A DNA stretch of 64,000 nucleotides from Viridibacillus arenosi (GTDB lineage Bacteria > Bacillota > Bacilli > Bacillales_A > Planococcaceae). The translations under genes were made by a program, and so were the position numbers. Position 1 is the stretch's first letter. Each line of letters begins with the position of its first letter. The notes under the pieces are model-generated. The model made no database searches, was not told the DNA's origin, and worked only from the letters and a program-made list of their open reading frames with translations. The DNA is taken from contig NZ_MSPW01000004.1 of assembly GCF_001955655.1 (NCBI RefSeq), positions 62,001 to 126,000 of the forward strand, written 5' to 3'. This document shows, in pieces, positions 20,587 through 36,100 of the stretch.

Positions 20587-20649
20587 AATAAATCCCCTCG
20601 TCTTTTCTAAGTTTATAATTCTTATAGAATTACTATGTATTGAAGGTAT

Positions 20650-20680
20650 AAAAAATCCCCCATTTATAATAGAGGGAGCT
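20650..20680 (-). terminator. Riboswitch expression-platform terminator
   Basis: On the minus strand CTCCCTCT pairs, with G-U pairs, to ATGGGGGA and is followed by TTTTTTAT. It lies just 3' of the SAM aptamer and 65 bases before the first gene, as expected for S-box transcription termination. Confidence 0.75.
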
Positions 20681-20699
20681 TAAATGTTGTGTATGCACC

Positions 20700-20798
20700 C
20701 TTATCTGTCAAGATTTCTCTTGCTGGAAGTAGCACCATTCTGTTATACAGTGGTTGCTGAAGCTTCATCGGACCAGTCCCTTAGCTTCTCATGATAAG
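20700..20798 (-). ncRNA. SAM-I (S-box) riboswitch aptamer
   Basis: Read on the minus strand the leader shows the S-box consensus in order: CTTATCATGAGAAG opening P1/P2, GGGACTGGTCCGATGAAGC, CTTCAGCAACC, GGTGCTACTTCCAGC, and the closing GATAAG of P1. These blocks match known SAM-I elements closely. When SAM is plentiful, the downstream terminator should form and shut off the YdbM-like/cystine transporter operon. When SAM is low, transcription continues. Confidence 0.95.
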
Positions 20799-20819
20799 TA
20801 ATATTCTATTGTTTCAATT

Positions 20820-20848
20820 ATCTTACTTTTTCTAAAGATGAAAGTCAA
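20820..20848 (-). promoter_or_regulatory. Sigma-A promoter of the SAM-riboswitch operon
   Basis: On the minus strand TTGACT (20848-20843) and TAAGAT (20825-20820) are separated by 17 bases. Transcription would begin near 20813, about 15 bases before the aptamer. Confidence 0.75.
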
Positions 20849-21082
20849 TATGAAAAACAAAGTATTTTTGTAGGGATTAAAAGTTATAGAAAAGAACCTA
20901 AGATTACAATTTAAAATGAGATAAATTCTATTGGATATAAATGAAGGATTTTAATTATCAATGATCAGTAGATTGCAAGGAATCAAAGCATTTGACGTAT
21001 TGAAACAAGCACATTCATACAGTTGGAAATTGTGATGAATTATACAATCAAGTAAATATTTTCAATATTTTTATTTTTTGAG

Positions 21083-21108
21083 GTTTAATGTCTATCGATA
21101 GTGGGTAA
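21083..21108 (+). promoter_or_regulatory. Sigma-B-like promoter of the opuC-type operon
   Basis: GTTTAA and GGGTAA are separated by 14 bases. This matches the general-stress sigma-B pattern (GTTTAA-N12-15-GGGTAT) with one mismatch. It lies 36 bases before the opuCA-like ATG. Sigma-B control of osmoprotectant uptake is known in Listeria and Bacillus. A weak sigma-A candidate (TTGACG at 20992) lies further upstream. Confidence 0.65.
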
Positions 21109-21144
21109 AAGAACTTAGGTTATAAAATTTGAGGGGGAATACTT

Positions 21145-22329
21145 ATGCTAAAGATAGAGAATTTATCGAAAGTATATAGGGGTGGAAAGAAAGCCGTTGA
21201 TGATATGAATATTGAAATAGAACGCGGTGAATTTGTCGCCTTTATCGGTACAAGTGGAAGTGGGAAAACGACTGCCATGCGTATGATTAATAGAATGATA
21301 GAACCAACCAAAGGCACCATATACTTAGAAGGGGAAGATTTAGCGAAAAAGAACCCCGTAGCACTTCGTAGGAGTATTGGATATGTTATTCAACAAATCG
21401 GTCTTATGCCACATATGACCATTCGTGAAAATATTACGCTTGTACCTAAATTGTTAAAATGGACAAAAGAAAAGAAAGATCAAACAGCAGAACGCCTCAT
21501 TGAACTTGTTAATTTACCTCAAAGCTATCTCGATCTATATCCCGCGCAATTATCTGGTGGTCAACAACAGCGTATCGGCGTGCTCCGGGCATTAGCCGCA
21601 GACCAAGACATTATCTTAATGGACGAACCATTCGGCGCATTAGACCCTATTACTCGTGACACGCTACAAGACTTGATGAAAGATTTACAGCAACGTCTTG
21701 GTAAAACAGTAATTTTCGTCACGCACGATATGGACGAAGCGATTAAATTGGCAGATCGTATTTGCATAATGCATAGTGGCCAAGTTATCCAATTTGATAC
21801 TCCTGACAATATCCTATCTAACCCTGCTAACGAATTTGTTCGTGAATTTATTGGCTCTCACCGTTTAATGCAAGAAAAACCAAGTGCAAAAATTGTTGAT
21901 GATGTAATGATTAAACCAATCTCTATAACGTTAGAAAAAAGTATTAATGATGCTTTTCGTTTGATGGTGACAAAGCGTGTCGACACATTATTTGTTGTTG
22001 ATGGACAAAATCATTTGAAAGGTTATATCGATGTTGAGGGATTAACTACGGCACGACATACCACTTCTAGCATTTCTGAAGCAGTAGAAAAAGACGTCTT
22101 TTATGTACGAAATGGTACAAAATTACAAGATTCAGTGCGTCGTATTTTAAAGCGGAATTTAAAACACATTCCTGTTGTAGATGAAGAGCATCGTTTAATT
22201 GGACTTGTTACTCGTGCAAATATTGTGGATATGGTATACGACACTATTTGGGGTGATGAGGAAATAAATGAGGATGCAAATGGTATTAATCCAGAGCAAC
22301 AAAGTGAATCTAATAAACAACTTAACTGA
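21145..22329 (+). CDS. opuCA: Glycine betaine/carnitine/choline ABC transporter ATP-binding protein, OpuCA type
   Basis: This 394-residue ATPase powers compatible-solute uptake. It has Walker A GTSGSGKTTAMRMIN near residue 37, signature [14 protein letters not shown], Walker B ILMDEPFGALDPITRD and H-loop FVTHDMDEAIKLADR. Two CBS domains follow (about 255-365; segments DTLFVVDGQNHLKGYIDVEG and IPVVDEEHRLIGLVTRANIVDMV). In OpuA-type systems such domains sense ionic strength or cyclic nucleotides. GGGGG lies about 8 bases before the ATG. The operon order opuCA-CB-CC-CD follows B. subtilis opuC and a sigma-B-like promoter lies upstream. Confidence 0.92.
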   Translation: MLKIENLSKVYRGGKKAVDDMNIEIERGEFVAFIGTSGSGKTTAMRMINRMIEPTKGTIYLEGEDLAKKNPVALRRSIGYVIQQIGLMPHMTIRENITLVPKLLKWTKEKKDQTAERLIELVNLPQSYLDLYPAQLSGGQQQRIGVLRALAADQDIILMDEPFGALDPITRDTLQDLMKDLQQRLGKTVIFVTHDMDEAIKLADRICIMHSGQVIQFDTPDNILSNPANEFVREFIGSHRLMQEKPSAKIVDDVMIKPISITLEKSINDAFRLMVTKRVDTLFVVDGQNHLKGYIDVEGLTTARHTTSSISEAVEKDVFYVRNGTKLQDSVRRILKRNLKHIPVVDEEHRLIGLVTRANIVDMVYDTIWGDEEINEDANGINPEQQSESNKQLN

Positions 22330-22359
22330 ATATTAACTAAATAGAAAGGACGTGAGTAG

Positions 22360-22995
22360 ATGATTGATTTTATAACACAAAACGGCGGAGATATTGTGCA
22401 AAAAACATGGGAACATTTTTATATATCTGCTATAGCTTTAATTTTAGGTATAGTCGTTGCAGTTCCTTTAGGTATTTTATTATCAAAACTACAGAGAACC
22501 GCTAAAATCGTTTTAGGTATTACAAGTGTTTTACAAACACTGCCGTCATTAGCTATTTTAGCAATTATGATTCCATTCTTAGGAGTCGGGAAAATCCCTG
22601 CAATTATTGCTCTATTTATCTACACACTATTACCTATTTTAAATAATACTTATATTGGTATGAATTCTGTGAATTCAGGTCTGAAATCAGCAGGAATTAG
22701 TATGGGAATGACAAAAATACAATCCATCGGGATGGTGGAACTGCCATTAGCTATCCCTGTCATTATGTCTGGGATTCGCTTATCTGCAGTGTACGCAATC
22801 TCATGGGCAACGTTAGCATCTTACATAGGAGCAGGTGGCTTAGGTGATTTTATTTTTAATGGACTGAACCTTTATCAACCTGAATTTATTATTGGCGGCG
22901 CTGTATTAGTAACTATTTTGGCCTTAATTACTGACTTTATATTATCTAAAGTAGAAAAGTGGGCTACACCAAGAGGTTTAAAAATTGAACGTTAG
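22360..22995 (+). CDS. opuCB: Compatible-solute ABC transporter permease, OpuCB type
   Basis: This 211-residue membrane permease has about six helices and the EAA-like loop [30 protein letters not shown]. Segments [22 protein letters not shown] and [16 protein letters not shown] are typical of OpuCB and ProW relatives. It starts 30 bases after the ATPase gene, with GAAAGGACGTGAG before the ATG. It forms the channel together with OpuCD. Confidence 0.91.
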
Positions 22996-23004
22996 GAGGG
23001 GAAC

Positions 23005-23943
23005 ATGCTTATGAAATATAAAAAAATAATTACCATTGGCTTGATTATGACGGTGTTAATTTTATCTGCTTGTTCACTAACCGGTTCAAGTGATGATAAT
23101 GACGTGAAAATTGCTTCAATGACAACGACAGAAAGTAAGATTATGGCTAATATGCTGAAATTAATGATTGAACATGAAACAGATGAAAAGGTAGAACTGA
23201 TTAATAATTTAGGATCAAGTGTCGTGCTGCATCAAGCAATGATTAACGGCGATGCAAATATTTCTTCAACACGTTATACAGGAACAGACCTTACTGGGGC
23301 TTTAAAAGAAGATCCTGTTAAAGATCCTAAAAAAGCGATGGATACTGTACAAAAAATATTCCAAGAGCGCTATGATCAAACATTTTTCGACACATATGGT
23401 TTTGCAAATACGTATGCATTTATGGTCACACGTGAAATGGCTGAAAAGCATCATTTGAAAAAAGTGAGTGACTTAAAAGGCATCGCAAAAGATTTACAGG
23501 CAGGCGTCGACAACTCATGGGTCAATCGTGTAGGGGATGGCTATAAAGACTTTGTGAAAACGTATGGTTTTGATTTTAAAGACGTTTATCCTATGCAGAT
23601 TGGGCTTGTCTACGATGCTGTAGAAGCAGGCAAAATGGATGTTATTCTTGGCTATACAACAGATGGTCGTATTGCAAGTTATGATCTTGTTGTATTAGAG
23701 GATGACCGACAATTCTTCCCACCGTATGATGCGAGTACTCTTGCAGTAAATGAATTATTAGAAGCAAAACCAAAAGTAAAAGAAGCGATTGAAAAATTAA
23801 TAGGTAAAATTTCAACAGAGCAAATGCAAAAGCTTAACTATGAAGCTGATAACAATCTAGTTGAACCAGCTATTGTGGCCGAAAAATTTTTAGAAGAACA
23901 TAATTATTTTGAAGATGCAGAAGGAGGGAAAAAGGATGACTGA
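23005..23943 (+). CDS. opuCC: Compatible-solute-binding lipoprotein, OpuCC type
   Basis: This 312-residue binding protein of the quaternary-amine family (OpuAC/OpuCC) is attached to the membrane through Cys23 of the lipobox ILSAC. Domains show VKIASMTTTESKIMANMLKLM, GDANISSTRYTGTDLTG and DVILGYTTDGRIASYDLVVLEDD. The last is the family's hallmark ligand-loop region. The ATG at 23005 follows AGGAGGG closely; ATG 23011 is an alternative. Its 3' end overlaps the opuCD start by 8 bases. Confidence 0.92.
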   Translation: MLMKYKKIITIGLIMTVLILSACSLTGSSDDNDVKIASMTTTESKIMANMLKLMIEHETDEKVELINNLGSSVVLHQAMINGDANISSTRYTGTDLTGALKEDPVKDPKKAMDTVQKIFQERYDQTFFDTYGFANTYAFMVTREMAEKHHLKKVSDLKGIAKDLQAGVDNSWVNRVGDGYKDFVKTYGFDFKDVYPMQIGLVYDAVEAGKMDVILGYTTDGRIASYDLVVLEDDRQFFPPYDASTLAVNELLEAKPKVKEAIEKLIGKISTEQMQKLNYEADNNLVEPAIVAEKFLEEHNYFEDAEGGKKDD

Positions 23944-24631
23944 TTTAAATACATTCCAACAATTCTTTTACTACTTCTCTGAAAATGGTTCTTATGTATT
24001 CGAGCAATTTATAACACATTTTCTTATCTCAATTTACGGTGTAATCTTAGCAGCCATCGTCGGTATTCCACTAGGCGTACTAATTTCGAAATACGCTAAA
24101 TTATCAGGGTTTATCATTACGATAGCGAATATTATACAGACTATACCAGCGCTTGCATTACTAGCGATTCTTATGCTAGGTATGGGGCTTGGAAAAACGA
24201 CAGTAATTATCACGGTATTCCTATATTCATTACTGCCGATTATTAAAAACACATATACAGGTATTAATAATATTAATAAGGATCTTACCGATTCCGGTAG
24301 AGGGATGGGAATGACACGCATTCAAGTGCTGTATATGATTGAGTTACCACTCTCACTCTCTGTAATTATTGCAGGAATTCGTATAGCCCTTGTTGTTGCT
24401 ATCGGTATTACAGCAATTGGTGCTTTCATTGGAGCAGGTGGACTTGGGGATATTATCATCCGTGGTACAAATGCTACGGATGGTACAGCGATTATTCTAG
24501 CAGGTGCCATTCCAACAGCACTGATGGCTATCATTACAGATTTGATACTTGGTTTCATAGAGCGTAAATTGGATCCAGTAAAGCGTCATAAAAATTTGAC
24601 GACACCAACAGTACAAAGTTTGAATGAGTAA
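23936..24631 (+). CDS. opuCD: Compatible-solute ABC transporter permease, OpuCD type
   Basis: This 231-residue permease is the partner of OpuCB. It has segments NIIQTIPALALLAILMLGMGLG, DSGRGMGMTRIQVLYMIELPLSL (coupling loop) and [17 protein letters not shown]. The longest frame begins at 23909, but AAGGAGGG at 23920-23927 points to ATG 23936 as the true start. That start overlaps the opuCC stop by 8 bases. A strong terminator follows and closes the operon. Confidence 0.91.
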   Translation: MTDLNTFQQFFYYFSENGSYVFEQFITHFLISIYGVILAAIVGIPLGVLISKYAKLSGFIITIANIIQTIPALALLAILMLGMGLGKTTVIITVFLYSLLPIIKNTYTGINNINKDLTDSGRGMGMTRIQVLYMIELPLSLSVIIAGIRIALVVAIGITAIGAFIGAGGLGDIIIRGTNATDGTAIILAGAIPTALMAIITDLILGFIERKLDPVKRHKNLTTPTVQSLNE

Positions 24632-24634
24632 AGT

Positions 24635-24674
24635 AAAAGCCTTGAAACCAAAATTAATCGGTTTCAAGGCTTTT
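24635..24674. terminator. Strong terminator between opuCD and the convergent TOPRIM gene
   Basis: A 15-base perfect stem AAAAGCCTTGAAACC/GGTTTCAAGGCTTTT is symmetric in A and T runs. It ends 4 bases before the stop of the convergent minus-strand gene, so it probably serves both directions. Confidence 0.88.
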
Positions 24675-24678
24675 ATTG

Positions 24679-25407
24679 TTACTCGTTAATCATTTTCATA
24701 TAATCGAACATTAGAGATACATTAGTAAATCTTTCCAAAGAGGCAAGGTCAGCAGATATGCTTTGCCAACTTTCCAAATACTTTTCTTCTAATGTCATAC
24801 TAGTTGAAATGGGTAAAAAATTAGAAAGAAACTCTTCTATTGGCTTTTGTTCATTTTCTAAAAACTCCTCAACCTCACGTACTTTATAACGTGTTTCTGG
24901 ATTGGCTTCGTTAAACAAAATATGTTCAAGTGCTCTTGAAAAATAATAAATTTGATAATTTACCTTGCCAGATAAAATGGTATTGAGTGTCCGCATGGTA
25001 TGAATGTTTTTGCTTTTTAATTTGTTTCTTTCAATAATTTTACTTTGTTGATTACTATTTGGCACGCTGATTGTTGTAGCGTTATAAAGTGTTAATCTAT
25101 CTTGGTTTTCATCAATAATTACGGCCGATTCGCCGATGAAGCAGCCGTCTGTATCGGCTATTTGGATAATTGCCAATAAATCTGTAGGGCCTAATTTCAT
25201 TTTATTAATATAGCTTTTAACACGATCTCCAATTAAGTTTTTTATATTGGAGTTCTTTTGATTTAAATCCCCCAAAATATCCCCTTTAATAATGTCGAAT
25301 CTAATTTCATTATTATTAAATAATGTACGTATTCGATCGTATAATAAAGCTTCTTCACAGGCACCTTCTACTAGTAACAAGACAACTTTTTTCGCTTTTT
25401 TACTCAT
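24679..25407 (-). CDS. TOPRIM-like putative nuclease/effector paired with an ATPase
   Basis: This 242-residue protein starts with KKVVLLLVEGACEEALLYDRI, where Glu14 fits the conserved acidic residue of TOPRIM domains. It continues to LLAIIQIADTDGCF, where Asp85 and Asp87 fit the DxD pair. A later YYFSRALEHILF (E161) lies where AriB/DUF4435-like and RloB-like proteins have further conserved residues. The rest is helical with no recognised domain. Its start overlaps the end of the ATPase gene by 8 bases, so the two are coupled. ATPase plus TOPRIM pairs are the architecture of OLD, Gabija, PARIS and RloAB type phage-defence systems. I cannot place it in a named family by eye. No housekeeping role is suggested by its neighbours. 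Confidence 0.72.
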   Translation of the reverse strand: MSKKAKKVVLLLVEGACEEALLYDRIRTLFNNNEIRFDIIKGDILGDLNQKNSNIKNLIGDRVKSYINKMKLGPTDLLAIIQIADTDGCFIGESAVIIDENQDRLTLYNATTISVPNSNQQSKIIERNKLKSKNIHTMRTLNTILSGKVNYQIYYFSRALEHILFNEANPETRYKVREVEEFLENEQKPIEEFLSNFLPISTSMTLEEKYLESWQSISADLASLERFTNVSLMFDYMKMINE

Positions 25408-26737
25408 TAATAATAGCCGCTTTTCTAAATGCTCTCTTCATATCATAGGCATTCGTTTCTTTATAAATTGCTTCGTCTTGACCACCTAACTGTATTGCAC
25501 GTAAATAAACATCCCTAGGATTATTAAGCTTTTTAACACCTTTTAATTGCATATAACGATTCTCTTCATTGGTAGTAGTGAACCATAAATTATGAATTGG
25601 TAGTACTTCAAGGATACGTAAGTTATGAGAAGTGAATATCAATTGGCCTGCTCCATTCTCATGGATAATTTCAAGTAATTCACCTAATAAGTATTCAAAT
25701 ACACCAGCATCTAATTCATCAATAATAACGCATGCATTAGGATTGTTATAAACAGCAATGAGTGTACTTAAGATAGAAATTATTTTCAATGTACCCTCGG
25801 ATTCACATTTCAAAGGTAGCTCGATGTCGCCTTTTCGAGAAAGAAATTCAACGAGCACACCATCAGATCCGTCATTCAATTTTTGTGTATGAAGAACATG
25901 AATTTTAATCTGTAAACCAGGAATAAGCATTTTAAGGACAATGTTCGTTTGTTCTATTAATTCTTTCATTGCATTGAACATGTCTTTTGGCAGTAAAGTA
26001 GTATCTTCTAATTTGGAGGGAATCACGCCACGTTTATTTTCGAGATGTATATTAAAAGGCATCGTAATATTAGAGATTAAATTGCCAAACTGCGTATTAT
26101 CAATGATATGCAAATCTCTTTTGAAGTCAAAAATAATATTTTGAATGAGTGCCATTTCCACTTCATCTAAATAATTGGGAAGAATATTTCTAACTTCTTT
26201 TCTGAAAATGAAAGAAGAATGATTTTCTTTAGAAAGATGGTTTGCTACTAATACTTTAACTCGATCATTTTGGTTTAAAGAGGTGAGATTGGTAGTGCGG
26301 ATAGTAACTTCTTCTCCGTTTTTTGAGAGTATATTTTTAAAGCGTTTACCTCGTTTATTTTCTCGATAACTTAAGCTTTCTGCCATCACATTTAACCTTT
26401 GTTCACCAACCACAAGAGAAACAGCGTATTTTAAGAAATACTCGCCAAATTTATTTTTGATGATGAATTGGAAATTTAGTTGTAAAGATGATTCACCGTA
26501 GTATATATGTAGATGATGAACATGAGGAAGTTTTTTATAGATTCCACCATCTAAGAGTGCCGATAAAATTTGAAATGCCTGTACAACTGCAGTCTTACCT
26601 GAACCATTTTGACCATAGAATCCAATAACATTAGCCTCTTCTAATTTGTCAAAATTTGTATCGATGTGGAATGTTCCATATTTTACGTTTTTTAGGTTGT
26701 TTAATGTAACATCTAGAACTTTAATAATCGGTTTCAT
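25400..26737 (-). CDS. SMC/ABC-like AAA ATPase (AAA_15/AAA_21 type), partner of TOPRIM-like protein
   Basis: This 445-residue cytoplasmic ATPase opens with a strand-loop LDVTLNNLKNVKYGTF and Walker A G42-QNGSGKT49. A long variable middle domain (about 60-300) replaces the coiled coil of SMC proteins. The late signature-like SEGTLKIIS (about 313-321), Walker B ACVIIDELDAG (about 335-345) and H-loop LIFTSHN (His371) are all intact, so it should hydrolyse ATP. Such ATPases act as sensors in phage-defence and overcoming-lysogeny systems. It has a strong AGGAGG start and is first in a two-gene leftward operon with the TOPRIM-like gene. Confidence 0.85.
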   Translation of the reverse strand: MKPIIKVLDVTLNNLKNVKYGTFHIDTNFDKLEEANVIGFYGQNGSGKTAVVQAFQILSALLDGGIYKKLPHVHHLHIYYGESSLQLNFQFIIKNKFGEYFLKYAVSLVVGEQRLNVMAESLSYRENKRGKRFKNILSKNGEEVTIRTTNLTSLNQNDRVKVLVANHLSKENHSSFIFRKEVRNILPNYLDEVEMALIQNIIFDFKRDLHIIDNTQFGNLISNITMPFNIHLENKRGVIPSKLEDTTLLPKDMFNAMKELIEQTNIVLKMLIPGLQIKIHVLHTQKLNDGSDGVLVEFLSRKGDIELPLKCESEGTLKIISILSTLIAVYNNPNACVIIDELDAGVFEYLLGELLEIIHENGAGQLIFTSHNLRILEVLPIHNLWFTTTNEENRYMQLKGVKKLNNPRDVYLRAIQLGGQDEAIYKETNAYDMKRAFRKAAIINE

Positions 26738-26980
26738 GTACTTCCTCCTAAAAACGAACTGTTTATATTATTTAGATAAAGGATAAAAAATATACTAATT
26801 TTAATTATAAACTCGAAGTTGTTATGTGTCATTTATTGTTAATAATAGTATTTTTGTTACATAAAAGATGGGTTGATCATTGACATACTACATTAGTATT
26901 CTCTCTATTTATTTATCAAATTGTTAAATTTACCCTATTTAAAATAGTGAAAATATAAACAAAATTGTCTCAATTAATAA

Positions 26981-27061
26981 TTGATTTTGAAAAATATATC
27001 CTTTATAATTTCACTAAACCGATTTAGTAATTATATTTTATAAATACTAAACCGATTTATT
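26981..27061 (+). promoter_or_regulatory. Hexuronate operon promoter with two LacI-type operators
   Basis: The promoter is TTGATT (26981-26986), 17 bases, TATAAT (27004-27009). Operator 1, ACTAAACCGATTTAGT (27013-27028), covers the expected start site. Operator 2, ACTAAACCGATTTATT (27046-27061), lies 33 bases further, about three helical turns. Both are near-palindromes with a central CpG, as LacI-family operators are. The same sequence recurs before the transporter and regulator genes. The rest of the 26738-27215 spacer is AT-rich without a gene. Confidence 0.85.
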
Positions 27062-27215
27062 GTTTATAAATACCTAAATTAGCTACATAGGACAACAAAA
27101 TTCTACAAATGAAAAAATTTTTGATCTAAATAGGTAATGTGTAATCTATGAATTTGCATCTAAATTAGAAAGACTGCTTATAAACTATAAGTTTCTAAAA
27201 GAAAGGATGTTAAAA

Positions 27216-28235
27216 ATGAAAGCGCTTCAAGTATTAGGGCCATATGAGCTGGTTATGAAAGATATGGAAAAACCACAAGTAAGCGAAGGTACAGATGTAC
27301 TTGTGAAAGTTAAACGTGTTGGGATATGCGGGTCAGATATGCATATTTATCATGGGACAAATCCACTTGCTACTTTACCAAGAGTTGTTGGTCATGAGGT
27401 AACAGGAGAAGTAGTAGAAATCGCTTCTGAAGTAACAAATTTAAAAGTAGGAGACCATGTCGTTGTAGAACCAATTAGTTACTGTGGGAAATGTTATGCG
27501 TGTCGTAAAGGTCAACCTAATGTATGTGAGCAATTGTCTGTTTTCGGTGTTCATGAAGACGGAGGTATGCGTGAGTGGATCGTACTTCCGGAGAAGCAAC
27601 TTCATGTAGTAGATTCTGCATTACCATGGGAAGAAGTCGTGTTGGCGGAACCATATACAATTGGTGCACAAGCTGTTTGGAGAGGCGGAGTAGAAAAGGG
27701 AGATACCGTTTTAATCCAAGGAGCCGGTCCAATTGGAATTTGTATTTTGAAACTAGCAAAAATTCAAGGTGCTAAAGTTTTCATTACAGATTTAAGTGAA
27801 GAACGACTTGCTTATGCAAAACAATTAGGGGCAGATGAAGTCATACAAGTAGGCTCAGAAGATGTGAAGGAACGTGTAATGGCAATAACAGACGGTGAAG
27901 GAGCAAATATTGTGATTGATGCAGTATGTTTACCTTCAACTTTCGAGTTATCATTTGAAGTAGTGTCTGCTGCAGGTAACATAGTCGTGTTAGGATTTGA
28001 TGAGCGTCCAGCGGCTATTTCGCAATTACCAATTACGAAAAAGCAAATTACAGTAACTGGATCACGTTTACAAACCTACCAATTCCCTAAAATTGTTCAA
28101 TTATTGAATGAAGGAAAGTTACGTCATGATGGGTTAATTACACATACATTTACAGTTGATCAAGTTCAAGAGGCTTTTGACTTTATCGAAAAACATCCAG
28201 ATCAAGTTAGAAAAGCTATTATCACATTTGAGTAA
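27216..28235 (+). CDS. Zinc-dependent alcohol/polyol dehydrogenase of the hexuronate operon (YjmD-like)
   Basis: This medium-chain dehydrogenase of about 339 aa has the catalytic-zinc region [13 protein letters not shown] and [10 protein letters not shown]. Its structural-zinc cysteines are in [15 protein letters not shown], and the NAD(H) fold is at [30 protein letters not shown]. It resembles B. subtilis YjmD and the RspB/LgoD group, which oxidise or reduce sugar acids. The longest frame begins at 27207, but AAAGGA at 27202-27207 favours ATG 27216. It is first in the operon, before uxuA, matching the B. subtilis order yjmD-uxuA-yjmF-exuT-exuR. The exact sugar acid is unknown. Confidence 0.87.
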
Positions 28236-28260
28236 AAAGAAAAAATGTCGGAGGTGCTAT

Positions 28261-29337
28261 ATGAATATTACATTTAGATGGTATGGACGAGGTAATGACA
28301 CAGTTACTTTAGAGCAAGTGAAGCAAATCCCAGGTGTACAGGGAATTGTTTGGGCATTACATCAAAAACCGGTTGGTGAAGTTTGGGGAAAAGAAGAGAT
28401 TCAGAGTGAAGTAGATTATATTCAAAGCTTTGGATTCCACACAGCTGTAGTGGAAAGTGTGAATGTCCATGAATCAATTAAATTAGGTAATGCTGAACGC
28501 GATCAGTATATCGAAAATTATAAACAAACAATACGTAATCTTGCAGCAGTTGGAGTTAATACAATTTGTTATAACTTCATGCCGATTTTCGACTGGACAC
28601 GTACAGAAATGTTCCATCCTTTAGAAGATGGCTCAACAGCATTATTTTTTGAAAAAGCAAAAGTGGAAAATTTAGATCCAAAAGAACTTATTAATACAGT
28701 AGCTTCAGCGTCAGATTTAACACTTCCAGGTTGGGAGCCAGAAAAAATGGCGAAGATTTCTGAACTATTCGAAGCGTATAAAGAAATCGACGAACAACGA
28801 TTGTGGGAAAATCTGGGATATTTCTTGGAAGCAATTTTACCAGTGGCCGAAGAGTGCAATGTTAAAATGGCAATTCATCCGGATGATCCACCATATTCAA
28901 TCTTTGGATTACCTCGTATTATCACAGGTGCCCAAAGCTATGAAAAATTAATCGAAATTTCAGACTCACCTTCAAATGCCTTTACATTCTGCTCTGGTTC
29001 AATGGGAGCTAGTCCTGAAAATGATATGGTGGAAATTGCAGAAAAATATGCATATCGTTCCCCATTTGCTCATATTCGTAACGTGAAAATCTATGACAAT
29101 GGTGACTTTGTTGAAACATCGCACTATACACAAGATGGTTCAATAGATGTCAAAGGTATTGTAAATGTATTACATAAACAAGATTATACAGGTTATGTAA
29201 GACCAGACCACGGCCGTCATATTTGGGGAGAAAAATGTAGACCTGGTTACGGTTTATATGACCGTGCATTAGGAATTATGTATTTACTTGGCCTTTGGGA
29301 TGCGTACAAAACAATTGAAGAAGGTAATACGAGATGA
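28261..29337 (+). CDS. uxuA: Mannonate dehydratase
   Basis: This 358-residue TIM-barrel enzyme converts D-mannonate to 2-keto-3-deoxy-D-gluconate. The UxuA pattern is clear: TFRWYGRGNDTVTLEQVKQIPGV, GLVWALH-like IVWALHQKPVGEVW, NFMPIFDWTRTEM, MAIHPDDPPYSIFGLPRI, FCSGSMGASPENDM and RPDHGRHIWGE. His, Asp and Cys metal ligands are in these motifs. The longest frame runs from 28156, inside the previous gene, but ATG 28261 with CGGAGGTG just upstream is the true start. Its stop overlaps the next start (ATGA). Confidence 0.94.
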   Translation: MNITFRWYGRGNDTVTLEQVKQIPGVQGIVWALHQKPVGEVWGKEEIQSEVDYIQSFGFHTAVVESVNVHESIKLGNAERDQYIENYKQTIRNLAAVGVNTICYNFMPIFDWTRTEMFHPLEDGSTALFFEKAKVENLDPKELINTVASASDLTLPGWEPEKMAKISELFEAYKEIDEQRLWENLGYFLEAILPVAEECNVKMAIHPDDPPYSIFGLPRIITGAQSYEKLIEISDSPSNAFTFCSGSMGASPENDMVEIAEKYAYRSPFAHIRNVKIYDNGDFVETSHYTQDGSIDVKGIVNVLHKQDYTGYVRPDHGRHIWGEKCRPGYGLYDRALGIMYLLGLWDAYKTIEEGNTR

Positions 29338-30170
29338 TACCAATTCATGAAAATCTAACTGGTAGAGTTGCTGTAATTACGGGTGGGAGCGGTGTTTTAT
29401 GCTCCCGCATGGCAATAGAGTTAGCTCGTCATGGGATGAAAATAGCCATTTTGAATAGAACAGCTGCAAAGGGACAAGTCATTGTAGATGAAATTGTATC
29501 AGCAGGTGGAACGGCTATTTCAGTTGTAACAGATGTCCTAAGTCGCGATGAGTTAGTGCTAGCAAAAGAACAAGTTTTGAAGCAATTTGGTCGTATCGAT
29601 TTGTTGATTAACGGTGCAGGCGGAAATGATGCCGATGCTATAACATCAACTGAAATTTATGAAGAAGAAACAGAGGGGAAAAGTTTCTTTGATTTAAAAG
29701 AAGAAGGATTTTATAAAGTCTTTTCTAGCAATTTCACAGGAAGCTTTTTGGCTAGTCAAGTATTCGGGGAAGTACTTTTAAAAAGTGAATCACCTTCGAT
29801 TATTAATATTTCGTCTATGAGCGCTTACTCTCCAATGACTAAAGTGCCAGCTTATAGTGCTGCAAAAGCGTCTATTAATAATTTTACTCAATGGATGGCC
29901 GTTCATTTCGCTGAAGCAGGATTACGTGTAAATGCAATTGCCCCAGGTTTTTTCCTAACAAAACAAAATCATAATTTATTGGTCAACGAAGAGGGCGGCT
30001 ATACACCACGCTCTAAAAAAATATTAACGGCGACTCCGATGAAACGTTTCGGTCAGCCAGAAGATTTGCTTGGAACATTATTATGGCTCTCTGATGAAGC
30101 TTATTCAGGTTTTGTAACAGGAATAACAGTACCGGTAGATGGTGGTTTTATTGCTTACTCAGGAGTTTAA
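29334..30170 (+). CDS. uxuB: Short-chain dehydrogenase, D-mannonate oxidoreductase (UxuB/YjmF type)
   Basis: This 278-residue SDR enzyme has the cofactor motif ITGGSGVLCSRMAIELA, the NG motif LLINGAGGND, catalytic Tyr and Lys in YSAAKASINNF and the C-terminal GFVTGITVPVDGGF. In B. subtilis the equivalent YjmF (UxuB) reduces fructuronate to mannonate. Its coupling by a 4-base overlap to uxuA supports that reaction here. About 75 bases after it, a LacI-type operator precedes the transporter gene. Confidence 0.88.
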   Translation: MIPIHENLTGRVAVITGGSGVLCSRMAIELARHGMKIAILNRTAAKGQVIVDEIVSAGGTAISVVTDVLSRDELVLAKEQVLKQFGRIDLLINGAGGNDADAITSTEIYEEETEGKSFFDLKEEGFYKVFSSNFTGSFLASQVFGEVLLKSESPSIINISSMSAYSPMTKVPAYSAAKASINNFTQWMAVHFAEAGLRVNAIAPGFFLTKQNHNLLVNEEGGYTPRSKKILTATPMKRFGQPEDLLGTLLWLSDEAYSGFVTGITVPVDGGFIAYSGV

Positions 30171-30196
30171 GGGAAACGTGAATTTTGTGCGATATT

Positions 30197-30212
30197 ACTA
30201 AATCGGTTTATT
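30197..30212 (+). promoter_or_regulatory. LacI-type operator before exuT
   Basis: ACTAAATCGGTTTATT matches the two operators before the first operon gene (ACTAAAYCGRTTTAKT). It lies 33 bases before the transporter start and suggests an internal repressible promoter. Confidence 0.8.
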
Positions 30213-30244
30213 ACGTTTAATAAAATGACAATTGGGGTGATTTT

Positions 30245-31495
30245 ATGTTTTCACAAGGCAGAGGCGTTGTAATAGCATTTTTATTTTTAGCTGGTGTGAT
30301 TAACTATCTTGATCGTTCTGCACTATCAATTGCAGCACCGTTCATTAAAGATGATTTATCGTTAACTGCAACGCAAATGGGGATTATTTTCAGTAGTTTC
30401 TCTGTTGGATATGCGTTATTCAACTTTTTCGGGGGTATGGCTTCAGATAAATTTGGGGCAAAAATGACGCTTTTTGTAGCAATGATTGTTTGGTCATTAT
30501 TTAGTGGTGCGTTAGTTTTAGCAGTTGGATTTGTTAGTATGATCGTTATTCGCGTGTTGTTTGGTATGGGAGAAGGTCCGTTATCAGCCACCATTAATAA
30601 GATGGTCAATAACTGGTTTCCGCCGAACCAACGTGCTTCCGTTGTCGGATTAACAAATAGTGGTACCCCACTTGGCGGAGCAATTTCAGGACCAATTGTT
30701 GGTTATATTGCAATAGCATATGGTTGGAGAATTTCATTTATCGCAATTATGATCATTGGTTTAATCTGGGCGGCTTTCTGGTGGAAATTTGTGAAGGAAA
30801 AACCAGAAAAAGCTGGTGACAAAGATCAAAAAGAAGATATGAATTTAATAAAAGAAAGCAAATTAAAATTCACCTTCTATATTAAACAAAAAACAGTCTT
30901 ATTTACTGCCTTTGCATTTTTCGCTTATAACTATATTTTATTTTTCTTCTTAACATGGTTCCCGAGCTATTTAGTAAGTGCACGTGGATTGAGTGTTAAG
31001 GATATGAGTATTATTACAGTTATTCCTTGGGTTTTAGGTTTTATTGGTCTTGCAATGGGTGGTTTTGTTTCAGACTTTATTTATAAAAAGTTTTTACAAA
31101 AAGGTGTTTTGTTCTCTCGTAAATTAATACTTGTGTCATGTTTATTCCTTTCGGCATTATGTATTGGATTTGCTGGATTAGTAACAACGACTGTAAGTGC
31201 AGTTGCTTTAGTAGCAGCATCTGTATTCTTCTTATACTTAACTGGTGCAATTTATTGGGCAATTATCAATGATGTAGTAGATCAAAGTAATGTAGGTTCA
31301 GTAGGAGGTTTCATGCACTTCTTAGCAAATACTGCAGGGATTATTGGACCAACTTTAACAGGTTATCTTGTAGATACTACAGGAACATATACAGCAGCAT
31401 TCCTATTAGCAGGGGGCTTAGCAATAGTTGCTTCACTAGCAGTTATTCGTTTCGTCAAACCTATTATTAAGCCAAATGAAGAGACAGTAGCTTAA
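30245..31495 (+). CDS. exuT: MFS hexuronate transporter, ExuT-like
   Basis: This 416-residue, 12-helix major facilitator belongs to the anion:cation symporter branch that imports hexuronates and aldonates. The family motif after helix 2 is GGMASDKFGAKMTLFVAMIVWS, and FGMGEGPLSATINKMVNNWFPPNQRA is characteristic of ExuT/GarP-type proteins. The ATG has GGGGTGA upstream. It follows uxuB by 74 bases, which include one operator. Position between uxuB and the LacI regulator equals B. subtilis exuT (yjmG). The substrate could be glucuronate, galacturonate, fructuronate or mannonate. Confidence 0.88.
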   Translation: MFSQGRGVVIAFLFLAGVINYLDRSALSIAAPFIKDDLSLTATQMGIIFSSFSVGYALFNFFGGMASDKFGAKMTLFVAMIVWSLFSGALVLAVGFVSMIVIRVLFGMGEGPLSATINKMVNNWFPPNQRASVVGLTNSGTPLGGAISGPIVGYIAIAYGWRISFIAIMIIGLIWAAFWWKFVKEKPEKAGDKDQKEDMNLIKESKLKFTFYIKQKTVLFTAFAFFAYNYILFFFLTWFPSYLVSARGLSVKDMSIITVIPWVLGFIGLAMGGFVSDFIYKKFLQKGVLFSRKLILVSCLFLSALCIGFAGLVTTTVSAVALVAASVFFLYLTGAIYWAIINDVVDQSNVGSVGGFMHFLANTAGIIGPTLTGYLVDTTGTYTAAFLLAGGLAIVASLAVIRFVKPIIKPNEETVA

Positions 31496-31517
31496 GTTAA
31501 ATAAGATATCTTCATAC

Positions 31518-31588
31518 ATAGGGAATTATTTTTCACTTCTTGTCTTCAATAAATTGTAAAAATTGTGCTAGAAGTGAAAATGCCCTAT
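31518..31588 (+). promoter_or_regulatory. Long imperfect inverted repeat between exuT and the regulator gene
   Basis: ATAGGG and TTTTCACTTCT on the left (31518-31540) are matched by AGAAGTGAAAA and CCCTAT on the right (31570-31588). The repeat leaves a loop of about 29 bases. It overlaps the regulator promoter. It could be a processing hairpin in read-through RNA or a protein-binding dyad. Confidence 0.55.
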
Positions 31589-31618
31589 AATTTTAATAAA
31601 TAACTAAACCGATTTATT
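31563..31618 (+). promoter_or_regulatory. Promoter and LacI-type operator of the regulator gene
   Basis: TTGTGC (31563-31568) and TATAAT (31586-31591) are separated by 17 bases. The operator ACTAAACCGATTTATT (31603-31618) overlaps the start site and is identical to operator 2 of the operon. This fits autoregulation by the LacI-family protein. Confidence 0.75.
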
Positions 31619-31637
31619 AAAAATGGAGAGATGACAA

Positions 31638-32639
31638 ATGGAACGAGTAACAATGGCGGATGTCGCCAACAAAGCGAATGTCTCGAAAAGTACGGTATCA
31701 CAGTATATTAACAACCGTTTTGAATATATGAGTTTGGAAACAAAGAAAAGAATTGAATGTGCCATTGATGAGTTGAATTATCAACCAAACATAATCGCAC
31801 GGAGTTTAAAACAGAAAAAGACATATACAATCGGTGTCATTGTTGCGAACATCTTGCACACATTTTCAACACAAGTTATTCGTGCAATTGAAGATGAATG
31901 CCAGCTCAAAAATGTAAATGTCATAGTTTGTAATGCAGATGATCAACCTTCAAAAGAAAGAAAGTATATTGAAACACTAAGAGCGAAACAAGTGGATGGA
32001 TTAATAATTTTCCCGACAGGCGGCAACTTAGACTTATATAAGAAGTTAGAGAAAAGTGGTTATCCCCTCGTTTTTGTAGATAGATCTGTAGAAAATACGG
32101 ACATAACTTCGGTGTTATTAGATAACGAGAAAGCCTCTTTTCTTGCTGTTGATCATTTAGTGAAAAAAGGATATCGAAATATAGCATTTTTAACAACTTC
32201 TATTGAAATGAATATTACCCCTCGTATAGAGCGGATGAACGGATTTAAAAAAGCGTTGCAAAAGCACAATTTGCCACTTTTAGAACAGTTTTGTGCAGGT
32301 GAGCAAATTCATAAAATGCAGGAGAAAATACATTTTATGTTTTCACAAGATGAAGTGCCAGATGCAATTATTTGTGGGAATGACCTGACATTACTTGAAG
32401 TTTTGAAGTTTTGCCGAAAAAAATCGTTAATAATTCCAACAGATATCGCTTTGGTAAGTATAGATGAAGTTAGCTTTTCAGAGATATACAATCCTCCAAT
32501 CACAGTTGTAACACAGCCATCTTATGAGATTGGTACTTATGCAGCAAAGCAGTTATTAAAAAAAGCAGATGATCATGAAAAAACGGAAGAAACTATTATC
32601 CGTTTTGAACCACAATTAGTAGAACGTTCTTCAACTTAA
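31638..32639 (+). CDS. LacI-family repressor of the hexuronate regulon (ExuR-like)
   Basis: This 333-residue regulator has the LacI helix-turn-helix VTMADVANKANVSKSTVSQYINN and the hinge YQPNIIARSLKQKKTYTIGV. A periplasmic-binding-protein-like effector domain follows (about 60-325; segments GLIIFPTGG and AIICGNDLTLLEVLKFCRKK). GGAGAG lies about 8 bases before ATG 31638. Four copies of one CpG-centred palindrome in the surrounding operon, one before its own gene, are its probable operators. The position matches B. subtilis exuR (yjmH). The inducer is probably a hexuronate or a pathway intermediate. Confidence 0.88.
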   Translation: MERVTMADVANKANVSKSTVSQYINNRFEYMSLETKKRIECAIDELNYQPNIIARSLKQKKTYTIGVIVANILHTFSTQVIRAIEDECQLKNVNVIVCNADDQPSKERKYIETLRAKQVDGLIIFPTGGNLDLYKKLEKSGYPLVFVDRSVENTDITSVLLDNEKASFLAVDHLVKKGYRNIAFLTTSIEMNITPRIERMNGFKKALQKHNLPLLEQFCAGEQIHKMQEKIHFMFSQDEVPDAIICGNDLTLLEVLKFCRKKSLIIPTDIALVSIDEVSFSEIYNPPITVVTQPSYEIGTYAAKQLLKKADDHEKTEETIIRFEPQLVERSST

Positions 32640-32665
32640 AAACAAAAAGAATGGGAGCGAATATA

Positions 32666-33616
32666 TTGGATGTACTAACAATAGGTGACGCACTCATCAC
32701 AATGAATCCTATGTCTAATGGGCCATTAAGATTTGTAAATTCCTTTGAAAGAAAAGTAGGAGGCGCAGAGCTTAATGTAGCTATTGGCTGTTCAAGATTA
32801 GGATTGAAATCAGGTTGGATTAGTCGTTTAGGACAGGATGAATTCGGCAGGCATATTTATTCATTTGCTCGAGGAGAAGGTATTGATGTTGAGCATGTGA
32901 AGCTAGTGGAAGGTTATCCAACGTCAGTATATTTTAAAGAAATTTTAAACGCCAATCGTATCAACTCATATTACTATAGAGGGAATTCTCCTACAGAAAC
33001 ATTTGAAACTACGGATATAGATGAAGAATACGTAAGGCAATTCAAAATTCTTCACATTAGTGGCGTATTTTCAGCCATTCATAAAAACAACCGAGAAATT
33101 ATTTTAGCATTATTAAAAATAGCTAAAAAAAATAATGTTTATGTTACTCTTGATCCTAATATTCGCCTGAAGTTATGGAGTGCTGAAGAAGCTCGTAATA
33201 CATTATGTTCTTATTTACCATATGTAGACATGATTATGATGGGTGAAGAAGAAGCAGAAATATTATTTTCGACAAGTAAAATGGATGAACTTACTCAACT
33301 TTTGCAAGAAACCTATAGCATCAAGAATTTTGTCTTAAAGCGCGGATCGAAAGGTGCAGTTGGTTACGAAGACGACCAAATCACTTCATCATCAGCCTTA
33401 GAAAATTTAGAAATTGTCGACGAAATTGGTGCAGGAGATGCCTTTGCATCTGGTTACATTTACGGAATTATTAACGGCTGGACAATGGAAAAACGATTAA
33501 GCTTTGCAAACTCTGTAGCAGCATTCGTATTAACAGTACCAGGAGATAATGAAGGTTTACCTTATATAGAGGATCTAGAAAAATTCCTAGGTTTAAAGAA
33601 AGATATACAAAGATAG
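32666..33616 (+). CDS. kdgK: 2-keto-3-deoxygluconate kinase (PfkB family)
   Basis: This sugar kinase of about 316 aa phosphorylates KDG, the product of UxuA, to KDPG. It has the PfkB N-terminal pattern VLTIGDALITMNP, RFVNSFERKVGGAELNVAIGCSRLG, and the second signature VDEIGAGDAFASGYIYG with catalytic Asp. The frame is open from ATG 32651, but GGGAGCG at 32653-32659 points to TTG 32666 as the start, giving MDVLTIGDA as is usual for KdgK. It lies 26 bases after the regulator gene. A hairpin terminator follows. Confidence 0.88.
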   Translation: MDVLTIGDALITMNPMSNGPLRFVNSFERKVGGAELNVAIGCSRLGLKSGWISRLGQDEFGRHIYSFARGEGIDVEHVKLVEGYPTSVYFKEILNANRINSYYYRGNSPTETFETTDIDEEYVRQFKILHISGVFSAIHKNNREIILALLKIAKKNNVYVTLDPNIRLKLWSAEEARNTLCSYLPYVDMIMMGEEEAEILFSTSKMDELTQLLQETYSIKNFVLKRGSKGAVGYEDDQITSSSALENLEIVDEIGAGDAFASGYIYGIINGWTMEKRLSFANSVAAFVLTVPGDNEGLPYIEDLEKFLGLKKDIQR

Positions 33617-33645
33617 TATAGACGCAAATCGAATAGGACAAAAAA

Positions 33646-33703
33646 ATGCATGTAATATTTTTCATTAACTTAATTGTATATTGAAATAATACATGCATCT
33701 TTT
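33646..33703 (+). terminator. Terminator after kdgK
   Basis: The stem ATGCATGTA/TACATGCAT, extended by an imperfect AT-rich stem, is followed by CTTTTATTTTAG. Confidence 0.7.
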
Positions 33704-33747
33704 ATTTTAGTGGACTATTTAATCTTTCAAGAAGGGGTTGTTACTAA

Positions 33748-34334
33748 TTGGTGTCTCAAAAAACTATTCAAATCAATATAGCTGATAATGTAGCCATTGC
33801 ATTGGAAGATTTAGAAAAGGGCTATGTGATTAAATTACAAGATAGAAAAATCACTGATTTGCCAAGTTACAAGGTGCTACAACTTTCCTAATGGATTTAA
33901 GCGAAGAACGCCTTAACTATAGTAAAGACTGGACAGATGCAGATGCAGTATTTCAGCCAAGTGAGCAAGTATTAGATGAATTAAGAGAAAAAAATAATGG
34001 CCAATTGCCAACTATTGTTTTTGATGCTACTGGCAATAAGCATTCGATGATGAAAGCGTTTGAATATGCAGAGCATGGAAGAAAAGTAGTCTATGTTGGT
34101 TTAGTGAAAGGTACAATAAGCTTCTTCGATCCAGATTTTCATGCAAAAGAAATGACATTACTAGGAAGTAGAAATGCTACTTTAGAAGATTTCCAATATG
34201 TCATTGATTCTATGCAAAACGGATCGGTTAAAGGGGGCTATGTTACAAAGAAAATTACATTCGAGCAAACACCTGAATACTTCCAACAAGGTGATTTCCG
34301 AACAAATAAAGCACAAATCACTTTAGAGAGGTAA
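33748..34334 (+). pseudogene. Remnant: start of uxaA fused to the 3' half of a zinc dehydrogenase gene
   Basis: From TTG 33748 or GTG 33751 the frame encodes SQKTIQINIADNVAIALEDL followed by EKGYVIKLQDRKITDL. This resembles the N-terminal SAF domain of altronate dehydratase UxaA. At about 33857 the similarity switches, in another frame, to FAKLQGATTFLMDLSEERLNYSK, the coenzyme-binding region of a medium-chain dehydrogenase. That frame stays open to 34334 and ends in QITLER. The N-terminal half of the dehydrogenase, with its zinc sites, is missing. The simplest reading is a deletion that joined uxaA codon 36 or so to the middle of a neighbouring dehydrogenase gene. The 147-residue frame from ATG 33891 would not be an active enzyme. 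Confidence 0.82.
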
Positions 34335-34345
34335 GGGGAATTCAA

Positions 34346-34975
34346 ATGAATAAAGAACAAGCACTTTTACGTATGAAAGAAGCAGGTGTCATCCCTGTTA
34401 TGCGCGGTATGGAAACAGCTACAGTTATTGATTTACTGCAAGCATTATATGAGGGTGGTTTAAAGGCAGTTGAAATTACAATCGAGGGCGACGAAGGTTT
34501 AGATTCTATTAAAGTTGCAAAGGAGCATTTCCAGGACAAACTATTTGTCGGTGCAGGCACAATTTTAAGTGGAGCAGATGCACAAGCTTCAATCGATGCA
34601 GGAGCAGATTTTATCGTTACACCAATCGTTGTGGCAGATGCTATTACAGTAGCAAAGGAAAATGACTGCTTTGTCGCAATTGGAGCATTCTCACCAACTG
34701 AAATTGCCACAGCGTATTCATTAGGCGCAGATATCGTAAAAGTATTCCCGGCAAACACACTTGGGGCTGATTATTTAAAAAATGTTAAAGGTCCACTTCC
34801 ACAAATTCCGTTAATGCCAACTGGTGGTATCGATTTAAGTAATATTCAATCGTATTTCAAAAATGGCGCAATTTGCGTAGGTGTAGGCAGTGCAATTTAT
34901 AAATTCAACACAGCAGCTGAAATTACAGCAGCAGCTCGTGAATATGTTCAAGCATTTGAATCTGCTAAAAACTAA
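34346..34975 (+). CDS. kdgA: KDPG/KHG aldolase
   Basis: This 209-residue class I aldolase splits KDPG into pyruvate and glyceraldehyde 3-phosphate, the last step of the hexuronate pathway. Its motifs are GVIPVMRGMETATVIDLLQALYEGGLKAVEIT (catalytic Glu), FVGAGTIL, GADFIVTPIV (Schiff-base lysine region; the lysine is in DIVKVFPANTLG) and PLMPTGGIDLSNIQSYFKNGAICVGVGSAI. It lies 11 bases after the dehydrogenase remnant. Its own promoter is not obvious, so it may depend on read-through or on the promoter of the decayed unit. Confidence 0.93.
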   Translation: MNKEQALLRMKEAGVIPVMRGMETATVIDLLQALYEGGLKAVEITIEGDEGLDSIKVAKEHFQDKLFVGAGTILSGADAQASIDAGADFIVTPIVVADAITVAKENDCFVAIGAFSPTEIATAYSLGADIVKVFPANTLGADYLKNVKGPLPQIPLMPTGGIDLSNIQSYFKNGAICVGVGSAIYKFNTAAEITAAAREYVQAFESAKN

Positions 34976-34987
34976 TAACATTTTTAT

Positions 34988-35040
34988 AAAAAAGAGGTTG
35001 CTCATAGTCAATTAAATTGGCTTATGAGCAACCTCTTTTT
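34988..35040. terminator. Terminator after kdgA that overlaps the end of the convergent gene
   Basis: AAAAAAGAGGTTGCTCATA pairs with TATGAGCAACCTCTTTTT over about 18 bases. The last ten codons of the minus-strand gene at 35012 lie in the right arm and loop. Confidence 0.85.
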
Positions 35041-35527
35041 GCATAGTAATATTATTTTGAGTTTTTTCGTAATAAACTTTGCCATCTTCTGAAATCTCCC
35101 AATAACCATACTGAGAATCTTTGCGGATAAAGTTTTTAATATTCAGCTGTTGACTAGCCCAACGAACATTGTTTTTCCATTGAGGCTCTTGACCATCACG
35201 TACTGTAATACGTGCTTCATCCTCAGTGATTTCGAACATCTCGCGCATTTCCTCATATGCATCATTAATTGCTACGGGTTCATTGCGATTGTATAAATAA
35301 GCTAGTAAATTTGGCTCTATGTCTGTAGAGGTAGGAAGGATAGGACGTTTGTTTTTAATCTCCAAAGACAAATCCTTAAACCCGTTTCTCTGTATCTCTT
35401 GCTCGATTAGGAACCGTATAGAATCTCCGATTTCAGATTGAGCACCGGCCCATTTCATAATGCCCTCATCACTTTTTCGTAATCGCAAAGTTAATGAGTT
35501 TCCGGCATGATATTGCTCCTTTGACAT
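35012..35527 (-). CDS. Predicted DNA-binding protein: RHH-like N-terminus plus Mrr-type winged helix
   Basis: This 171-residue protein is of unknown function. The N-terminal part SLTLRLRKSDEGIMKWAG followed by SEIGDSIRFLIEQEIQRNG looks like a ribbon-helix-helix. The C-terminal part (about 70-155) has NNVRWASQQLNIKNFIRKD and then YGYWEISEDGKVYYEK, a pattern typical of the winged helix at the N-terminus of Mrr-type proteins. The next gene upstream encodes a shorter paralogue of that C-terminal domain (WSISEKGKKVY). GGGGGATAAC precedes the ATG. No nuclease motif is seen, so it is more likely a regulator. Its stop lies within the kdgA terminator. Confidence 0.65.
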   Translation of the reverse strand: MSKEQYHAGNSLTLRLRKSDEGIMKWAGAQSEIGDSIRFLIEQEIQRNGFKDLSLEIKNKRPILPTSTDIEPNLLAYLYNRNEPVAINDAYEEMREMFEITEDEARITVRDGQEPQWKNNVRWASQQLNIKNFIRKDSQYGYWEISEDGKVYYEKTQNNITMQKEVAHKPI

Positions 35528-35562
35528 ATGTTATCCCCCTGGAAGCCGATTATATCGATTTA

Positions 35563-35895: not shown

Positions 35896-35941
35896 AATGT
35901 AAAGCCCCCTTAGTTAGTAGAAGCAATTTTAAGTAGCTGCT

Positions 35942-35995
35942 AATGTACCTATTGTAACACAATGAAGTACATTAGTCGACAATGCAATGCATTGT
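35942..35995. promoter_or_regulatory. Nested palindromes upstream of the winged-helix genes
   Basis: The site holds AATGTAC...GTACATT (35942-35973) around ATTGT-AAC-ACAAT (35951-35963), then ACAATGCAATGCATTGT (35979-35995). Such nested dyads fit autoregulator operators for the leftward gene pair. They are separate from the BirA box. Confidence 0.5.
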
Positions 35996-36011
35996 AATAT
36001 GTTCTAGTGAC

Positions 36012-36067: not shown

Positions 36068-36100
36068 ATTTATAAATACATAAACATACAGGGGTGTAAA

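Follow-up and report, generated by a model that had tools for sequence, protein, structure and literature searches.

A translationally coupled ATPase and TOPRIM-type gene pair in Viridibacillus and related genera: a candidate sensor-effector system

The stretch of Viridibacillus arenosi DNA that was analysed (64,000 nucleotides, hereafter the window) carries two overlapping genes, A and B, which form a conserved and translationally coupled unit. A encodes an ABC-type ATPase and B encodes what is very probably a TOPRIM protein. The pair is both vertically inherited and mobile: it is present in every examined genome of two genera, the window's own and a second genus (g8), and related copies are found on plasmids and phage-like elements. 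We favour, with modest confidence, the reading that the pair is a sensor-effector system similar to PARIS and AbiL that is core in several genera.

The gene pair and the proteins it encodes

An earlier note on this DNA had described an SMC-like ATPase gene that overlaps a small gene by 8 bases, and both open reading frames were found on the minus strand where it had placed them (Table 1). A lies directly upstream of B in all 44 loci with an intact B, among 45 loci parsed. A start codon sits exactly 8 nt before the end of A in 49 of 58 loci (35 ATG, 14 GTG or TTG) and is absent in nine. Since A adjoins B so regularly and the 8-nt offset recurs, A and B are not a chance pair of reading frames, and the translational coupling read from the overlap was borne out. 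Lys48 of A and Glu14, Asp85 and Asp87 of B also stand at the positions that had been given for them. A candidate promoter precedes A, among promoter-like matches that show no excess across the region (18 found, 15.1 expected, sd 4.8); at the matching place the sister genome G002 has ACGACA-17-TATAAT (by eye). A strong hairpin in the gap between B and the convergent osmoprotectant operon is proposed as a two-way terminator. The site scan, which had a loop limit of 8, listed no terminator-like sites in the region; the loop of this hairpin is 10.

Table 1. Positions of the features in the window (g8, second genus)
Feature	Position	Strand	Remarks
Gene A	25400..26737	-	ABC/SMC-type ATPase of 445 aa (Pfam AAA_21); proposed to act as sensor and to keep B inactive
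Gene B	24679..25407	-	242-aa TOPRIM-type protein; proposed nuclease effector
8-base overlap of A end and B start	25400..25407	-	translational coupling
Walker A of A (residues 42-49, GQNGSGKT)	26591..26614	-	in 32/32 g8 genomes
Walker B of A (Asp340-Glu341)	25715..25720	-	DELD[AS]G in 32/32 g8 genomes
First TOPRIM motif of B (Val13-Glu14-Gly15)	25363..25371	-	E14 and G15 invariant in 20/20; VEG in 32/32 g8 genomes
Second TOPRIM motif of B (Asp85-x-Asp87)	25147..25155	-	invariant in 20/20; DxDG in 32/32 g8 genomes
Candidate A-B operon promoter (ATGACA-17-TATAAT)	26804..26832	-	11/12 consensus
Strong hairpin, proposed two-way terminator	24628..24685		-27.3 kcal/mol, z -8.2
Sugar-acid operon segment (8.2 kb)	26812..34984		context outside the system; absent in G002

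A matched Pfam AAA_21 with E 1e-13 and 52.5 bits (cut-off 27 bits) and AAA_15 with 27 bits. When A of the window was aligned with 19 others, the Walker A GQNGSGKT, a signature-like E-S-x-G, D340/E341, and H371 were invariant, and the description of A as an SMC-like ATPase with intact motifs therefore stands. Its PADLOC matches were AbiLi (E 8.7e-27), AriA (9.4e-17), and HEC-01A (2.1e-15). All 20 members of the A family match AbiLi, and they equally match the HEC-01A, AriA, mad3, and PDC-M07A models, suggesting that A can be assigned only to the ATPases of this general kind. The AriA matches were considered as evidence for PARIS and rejected as unspecific. PADLOC has two AriA models, of 304 and 373 positions, while Pfam AAA_21 has 304 and AAA_15 has 374, from which we infer that the models represent the general ATPase domains.

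B was much harder to recognise. Window B had no Pfam or PADLOC match at E ≤ 10, only chance-level matches in NCBIfam (E 0.14) and PHROGs (E 0.26), and nothing significant when its sequence was compared with solved structures. In an alignment of window B with 19 others, which are 26-82% identical to it, E14, G15, D85, D87, and G88 were invariant, and so were K7, Y151, L160, K175, W214, and N229 (20/20). The 20 sequences were scanned singly against Pfam at E ≤ 1 and matched OLD-like_TOPRIM (8/20), DUF4276 (5/20), Toprim (3/20), and RloB (1/20) with best E values of 0.0049-0.039, but unrelated families scored alike (DUF1836 0.011, Pneumo_M2 0.012 in two members, Flavoprotein 0.014) and window B itself had no match. 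In ten B relatives scanned singly, stretches matching DUF4276 and Toprim cover both motif regions, all of them under the curated cut-offs. With hhalign, the B profile scored 79.8% against the OLD TOPRIM (E 1.5e-5), 49% against DUF4276, and 3% against RloB, while five unrelated control families scored 0.1-0.2%; the profiles were thin (33/62 rows for B after filtering, 30 for OLD, and 3 for DUF4276), and the aligned core of B and the OLD TOPRIM lies around the first motif. The three TOPRIM-type families scored only 4.5-7.2% among themselves.

Since E14, D85, and D87 are invariant in 20/20 and the OLD TOPRIM match lies far above the five controls, B is very probably a TOPRIM protein, and the proposal of an ATPase with a TOPRIM-type partner is supported. 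The failure of the database searches with window B and the sub-threshold TOPRIM matches of its relatives would also suit a protein that is not a nuclease, in which the VEG/DxD pattern is coincidental or which is a non-cutting TOPRIM-like binder that regulates A. The invariant acidic residues and the profile match argue against this, and we consider it very improbable.

Comparison with known ATPase-TOPRIM systems

PARIS, in which an Ocr-type trigger leads to tRNA cleavage by the effector, has a similar layout of two genes, the first for an ABC ATPase and the second for a small TOPRIM nuclease. Its detection rule, as given in the excerpted text of PMC9122126, asks for an ATPase with AAA_15 at ≥32 bits or AAA_21 at ≥27 bits, together with DUF4435 at ≥27 bits. 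A reaches the ATPase threshold through AAA_21. The DUF4435 partner was not found: window B has no match to it at E ≤ 10, and it is absent from the 24 families listed for the 20 B sequences at E ≤ 1. AbiL is also bicistronic, with an ATPase and a TOPRIM-type partner, and the best PADLOC match of A is the AbiLi model. When the profile of A was compared with those of ATPases paired with AbiLii-like proteins, only 86 columns were covered. Window B has no AbiLii match, and 2/20 B sequences match weakly (best 0.002). Moreover, AbiLii-like proteins differ from B (hhalign 17% and 3%, confined to the first motif), and in g8 their genes are at a separate locus from A-B. The RloB domain (PF13707) was not found in the window pair and matched 1/20 B sequences at 0.039.

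OLD and the Gabija protein GajA contain the same two domain types, and among the profiles compared B is closest to the OLD TOPRIM. However, OLD and GajA are single-chain proteins, whereas A and B are separate genes with no fusion in 44/44 loci. No helicase partner was recognised by eye among the neighbours of 12 loci. The PADLOC candidate HEC-01, with its DUF4276 protein, also combines an ATPase with a small TOPRIM-like protein, and B relatives match one HEC-01B model weakly (7/20, best 2.3e-5). It differs in that the two strong HEC-01B loci have a 315-371-aa ATPase with a DUF4276 protein; A aligned with one HEC-01 ATPase over only 87 residues (E 0.008). A matches HEC-01A, but window B matches neither HEC-01B nor DUF4276. 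For MADS (MAD3/MAD4), A scored 26.8 bits against the MAD3 equivalog cut-off of 420.

Two further comparisons bear on function. Cran1, an archaeal class 5 OLD protein, resembles the pair in that its ATPase-TOPRIM machinery is conserved across a lineage and not scattered. In the excerpts of PMC12796447 it is a single chain, reported as essential, with a cell-cycle role in archaea. NetFlax, as excerpted from PMC10440598, includes toxicity-neutralisation assays for two AAA-TOPRIM_OLD pairs; these pairs, from C. algidicarnis and S. agalactiae, are likened to A-B by description only. The literature search, which went by title and abstract, found no paper recognisable as dealing with the A-B pair. 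The earlier note could not place the pair by eye in OLD, Gabija, PARIS, or RloAB, and by the tests run it could not be placed in OLD, PARIS, AbiL, RloAB, HEC-01, or MADS. As for its being a new system, the pair fits the full definition of none of these, but it would work like known ATPase-TOPRIM pairs.

Inheritance, mobile copies, and decay

In the window's genus, the pair is at the same site beside the osmoprotectant operon in 3/3 examined genomes (its own included), and window B has a 96% match to a record named V. arvi. The alignment of the window with the sister genome G002 is unbroken from 21100 to 26811 and starts again at 34985; in G002 these two matches are separated by only 45 bases. 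Therefore, the part that differs is the sugar-acid operon segment (Table 1) and not the A-B pair. An insert of the pair at this site was rejected, as G002 has the pair aligned continuously with the flank. The pair had been called an isolated two-gene insert, which related genomes might lack exactly (24.68-26.74 kb). Neither was borne out, since the pair stands at the site in all three genomes and the variable element is the sugar-acid segment, which either one lineage gained or the other lost. A V. arvi relative matches the window through this segment to at least 33851 in the stretch compared. The divergence of the A and B proteins from two sister genomes is within the range of their neighbours, and the GC content of the pair is 31.7% compared with 35.1% for the window; composition and divergence are weak evidence either way on a recent arrival.

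Several other features of this region were observed. In G002, A adjoins orthologues of two small co-directional genes located at 35012-35895 in the window. These orthologues lie immediately upstream of A in G002 and have matches to the Mrr N-terminal domain; no such genes were found beside the pair in the other parsed loci (45 parsed). Upstream of the sugar-acid operon, at 27015-27075, there are two close copies of the palindrome-like ACTAAACCGATTTA (by eye), which are possibly a LacI-type operator, and a LacI-like gene was read by eye at 31638-32639. A SAM riboswitch (Rfam RF00162, 84.3 bits) is on the minus strand at 20698-20800, from a search that covered 20000-36500.

Across the family of the window, A was found in 57 of 261 genomes and B in 56. 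The additional A belongs to G066, which lacks B, and the B of G177 is broken. In g8 the pair is present in 32/32 species. In 31 of the 32 genomes, counting the reference G030 itself, at least one flanking gene belongs to a family that also flanks the pair in G030; flanks were scored by family, so that paralogues are possible. No flank is shared by G045, and in G033 the shared one lies on the opposite side. The tested A and B motifs are intact in 32/32 g8 genomes. In g8 the dN/dS of A has a median of 0.074 (100 pairs) and that of B a median of 0.092 (152 pairs), compared with 0.046-0.114 for three neighbours; the values come from simple Nei-Gojobori counting over pairs whose dS is 0.05-1.2. Thus the pair is under strong purifying selection in g8. 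Across the phylum it is sparse: 11 of 398 sampled genomes matched, including its own genome, four marginal matches (E about 7e-4, frames of 544-547 aa), and six plausible others, three of which are full length. In a tree of 62 pairs the genera largely group together, and most genus-level groups are recovered alike from A and from B. As exceptions to this grouping, G045 of g8 clusters with g11 and g17, and G226 and G165 are separated from the rest of their own genera. The neighbours are mostly ordinary genes (12 loci, by eye).

Presence in every examined genome of two genera, purifying selection, and mostly ordinary neighbours are together unusual for a defence system. The pair might instead be domesticated, with a housekeeping job in chromosome maintenance, repair, or RNA processing and its defence role lost in the genera where it is core. 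Its occupation of mostly one site per genus and dN/dS values in the range of its neighbours are consistent with this, as is the archaeal OLD-type precedent of Cran1, to the extent described in the excerpts of PMC12796447. Furthermore, OLD-like TOPRIMs are patchy in g8 (11/32 genomes; judged single-chain only from open frames of 532-721 aa). However, A was not found in 204 of the 261 family genomes at E ≤ 1e-20, so it is not generally needed, and copies of the pair are on plasmids and phage-like elements. B has been lost or broken in several lineages, and no neighbour family is common to all genera in the loci parsed (45). We therefore regard a housekeeping role as fairly unlikely. The earlier note had named conservation at the locus in all relatives, combined with a housekeeping link, as grounds for abandoning the defence reading. 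Conservation was seen within the two genera, but the link was not found.

The genus g8 has another fixed TOPRIM gene. All 32 of its 32 species also carry an AbiLii/RloB-like TOPRIM gene, and thus the A-B pair is not unique in being core. This gene had been tried as a patchy contrast, as expected from its presence in 11/299 in the class, and was ruled out by the 32/32. Of the 13 genomes inspected for its surroundings (loci L227-L239), 12 have it in one neighbourhood. An ATPase gene is beside it in 10/13; in G045 the ATPase is farther out, while in G049 and G055 two short ORFs replace the associated ATPase and the TOPRIM gene is kept.

Plasmids from Lysinibacillus capsici, Paenibacillus, and Ruminococcus carry copies of the pair, with conjugation genes next to the one in L. 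capsici. A further copy is in a record named Clostridioides phage pCD1602_4. By PLSDB typing, the Lysinibacillus and Paenibacillus plasmids are non-mobilizable and the Ruminococcus plasmid is mobilizable. A 126-kb contig of G165 carries a copy nearly identical to that of the L. capsici plasmid, which points to recent transfer. A or B was also found on eight contigs of a viral collection, with one short fragment uncounted; no relative turned up in viral scans that used single clostridial queries. A defence island was considered and rejected, as nine of ten chosen neighbour proteins, a sample of all neighbours, had no PADLOC match at 1e-5. The one that matched is a thermonuclease-family protein beside the Paenibacillus plasmid copy. 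On the viral contig L083 (4040-6169), A is followed by a 219-aa protein that is not B and has no Pfam match at 0.001, a possible partner swap. A distant A homologue on a Cetobacterium plasmid (L145, 3095-4444) is near Cas13c and HepT/nucleotidyltransferase genes, with no B-like neighbour annotated.

Damage mainly in one gene was seen at seven loci. It fell on B in six and on A in one, though A is nearly twice as long; the count is small, and it mixes searches started from A and from B, which are not symmetric. In G177 the B frame is broken and A is largely kept. G066 has no trace of B, and its A frame ends a few residues early. In Paenibacillus sp. 37, B is recognisable only over its first ~57 residues; an E. 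eligens plasmid (one of two similar records) has no trace of it. In G626, B is cut to 152 aa by internal loss with both motifs present. The viral contig L083 has no B, and the first residues of its A are without a start codon in the ORF list. The reverse case is L078, which keeps B with A recognisable only over about its last 50 residues. L082 (both genes damaged), L139 (at a contig edge), and G603 were left out of the count. More frequent damage of B is as expected for a costly effector.

The same bias would be expected of a toxin-antitoxin or addiction module, in which A is an antitoxin that neutralises a toxic B, the pair is kept mainly by post-segregational killing or selfish retention, and defence is secondary or absent. 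The order of A then B with coupling and the NetFlax neutralisation assays on two AAA-TOPRIM_OLD pairs, as excerpted from PMC10440598, also fit such a module. However, addiction does not easily account for chromosomes having preserved the motifs of both proteins over a long vertical descent, and L078 keeps B with little of A. In the nearest mechanism model, PARIS, deleting ariA was reported as non-toxic according to the excerpts of PMC9122126. We consider this explanation improbable. Since deletion of either PARIS gene is reported there as non-toxic, the toxin-antitoxin reading is kept apart from one of abortive infection.

Proposed mechanism and significance

In the sensor-effector reading that we prefer, A, an ABC-type ATPase that is probably multimeric and co-translated with B, would bind B and hold it inactive. 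On sensing a trigger, which may be a phage protein or another signal of an invader, A would release or activate B. B would then cut nucleic acid through a two-metal TOPRIM site; its target may be tRNA, by analogy with AriB, or DNA, by analogy with OLD/GajA, and the outcome would be growth arrest or abortive infection. A role in defence is inferred. In favour of this reading are the matches of A to the ATPases of known defence pairs, the TOPRIM-type similarity of B, the agreement of the A and B trees, the copies on mobile elements, the sparse spread over the phylum, and the more frequent damage of B. Besides the core status and the mostly ordinary neighbours, the lack of a significant library match for window B, the counter-example L078, the reportedly non-toxic PARIS deletions, and the typing of two of the plasmids as non-mobilizable count against it. 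Precedents for such a mechanism are found in the excerpted accounts of PARIS (PMC12409363, PMC11455837) and of AAA-TOPRIM toxin-antitoxin pairs (PMC10440598). In several genera of the family the pair is a chromosomal operon handed down vertically; related copies travel on plasmids and phage-like elements.

The unusual part of the pair is its core status, for which Cran1 is a precedent in the excerpts of PMC12796447. We suggest tentatively, as a possibility that is on balance doubtful, that an unnamed ATPase-TOPRIM family has passed from mobile immunity to a fixed, vertically inherited chromosomal part in several genera, where it serves as standing innate immunity or has taken on a Cran1-like cellular job, and that in one genus a second, AbiL-like TOPRIM gene has also been fixed.

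ATPase-TOPRIM pairs are a large and mostly uncharacterised class of immune machinery. To this class the present family adds a TOPRIM-type partner which, in the case of window B, Pfam, PADLOC, NCBIfam, and PHROGs do not recognise at a significant level. It also adds a pair found throughout two genera, in one of which OLD-type TOPRIMs are patchy. In a soil genus, the pair thus raises the question of whether an ATPase-TOPRIM unit can become core, and whether it would do so while still defending its host or in another role.
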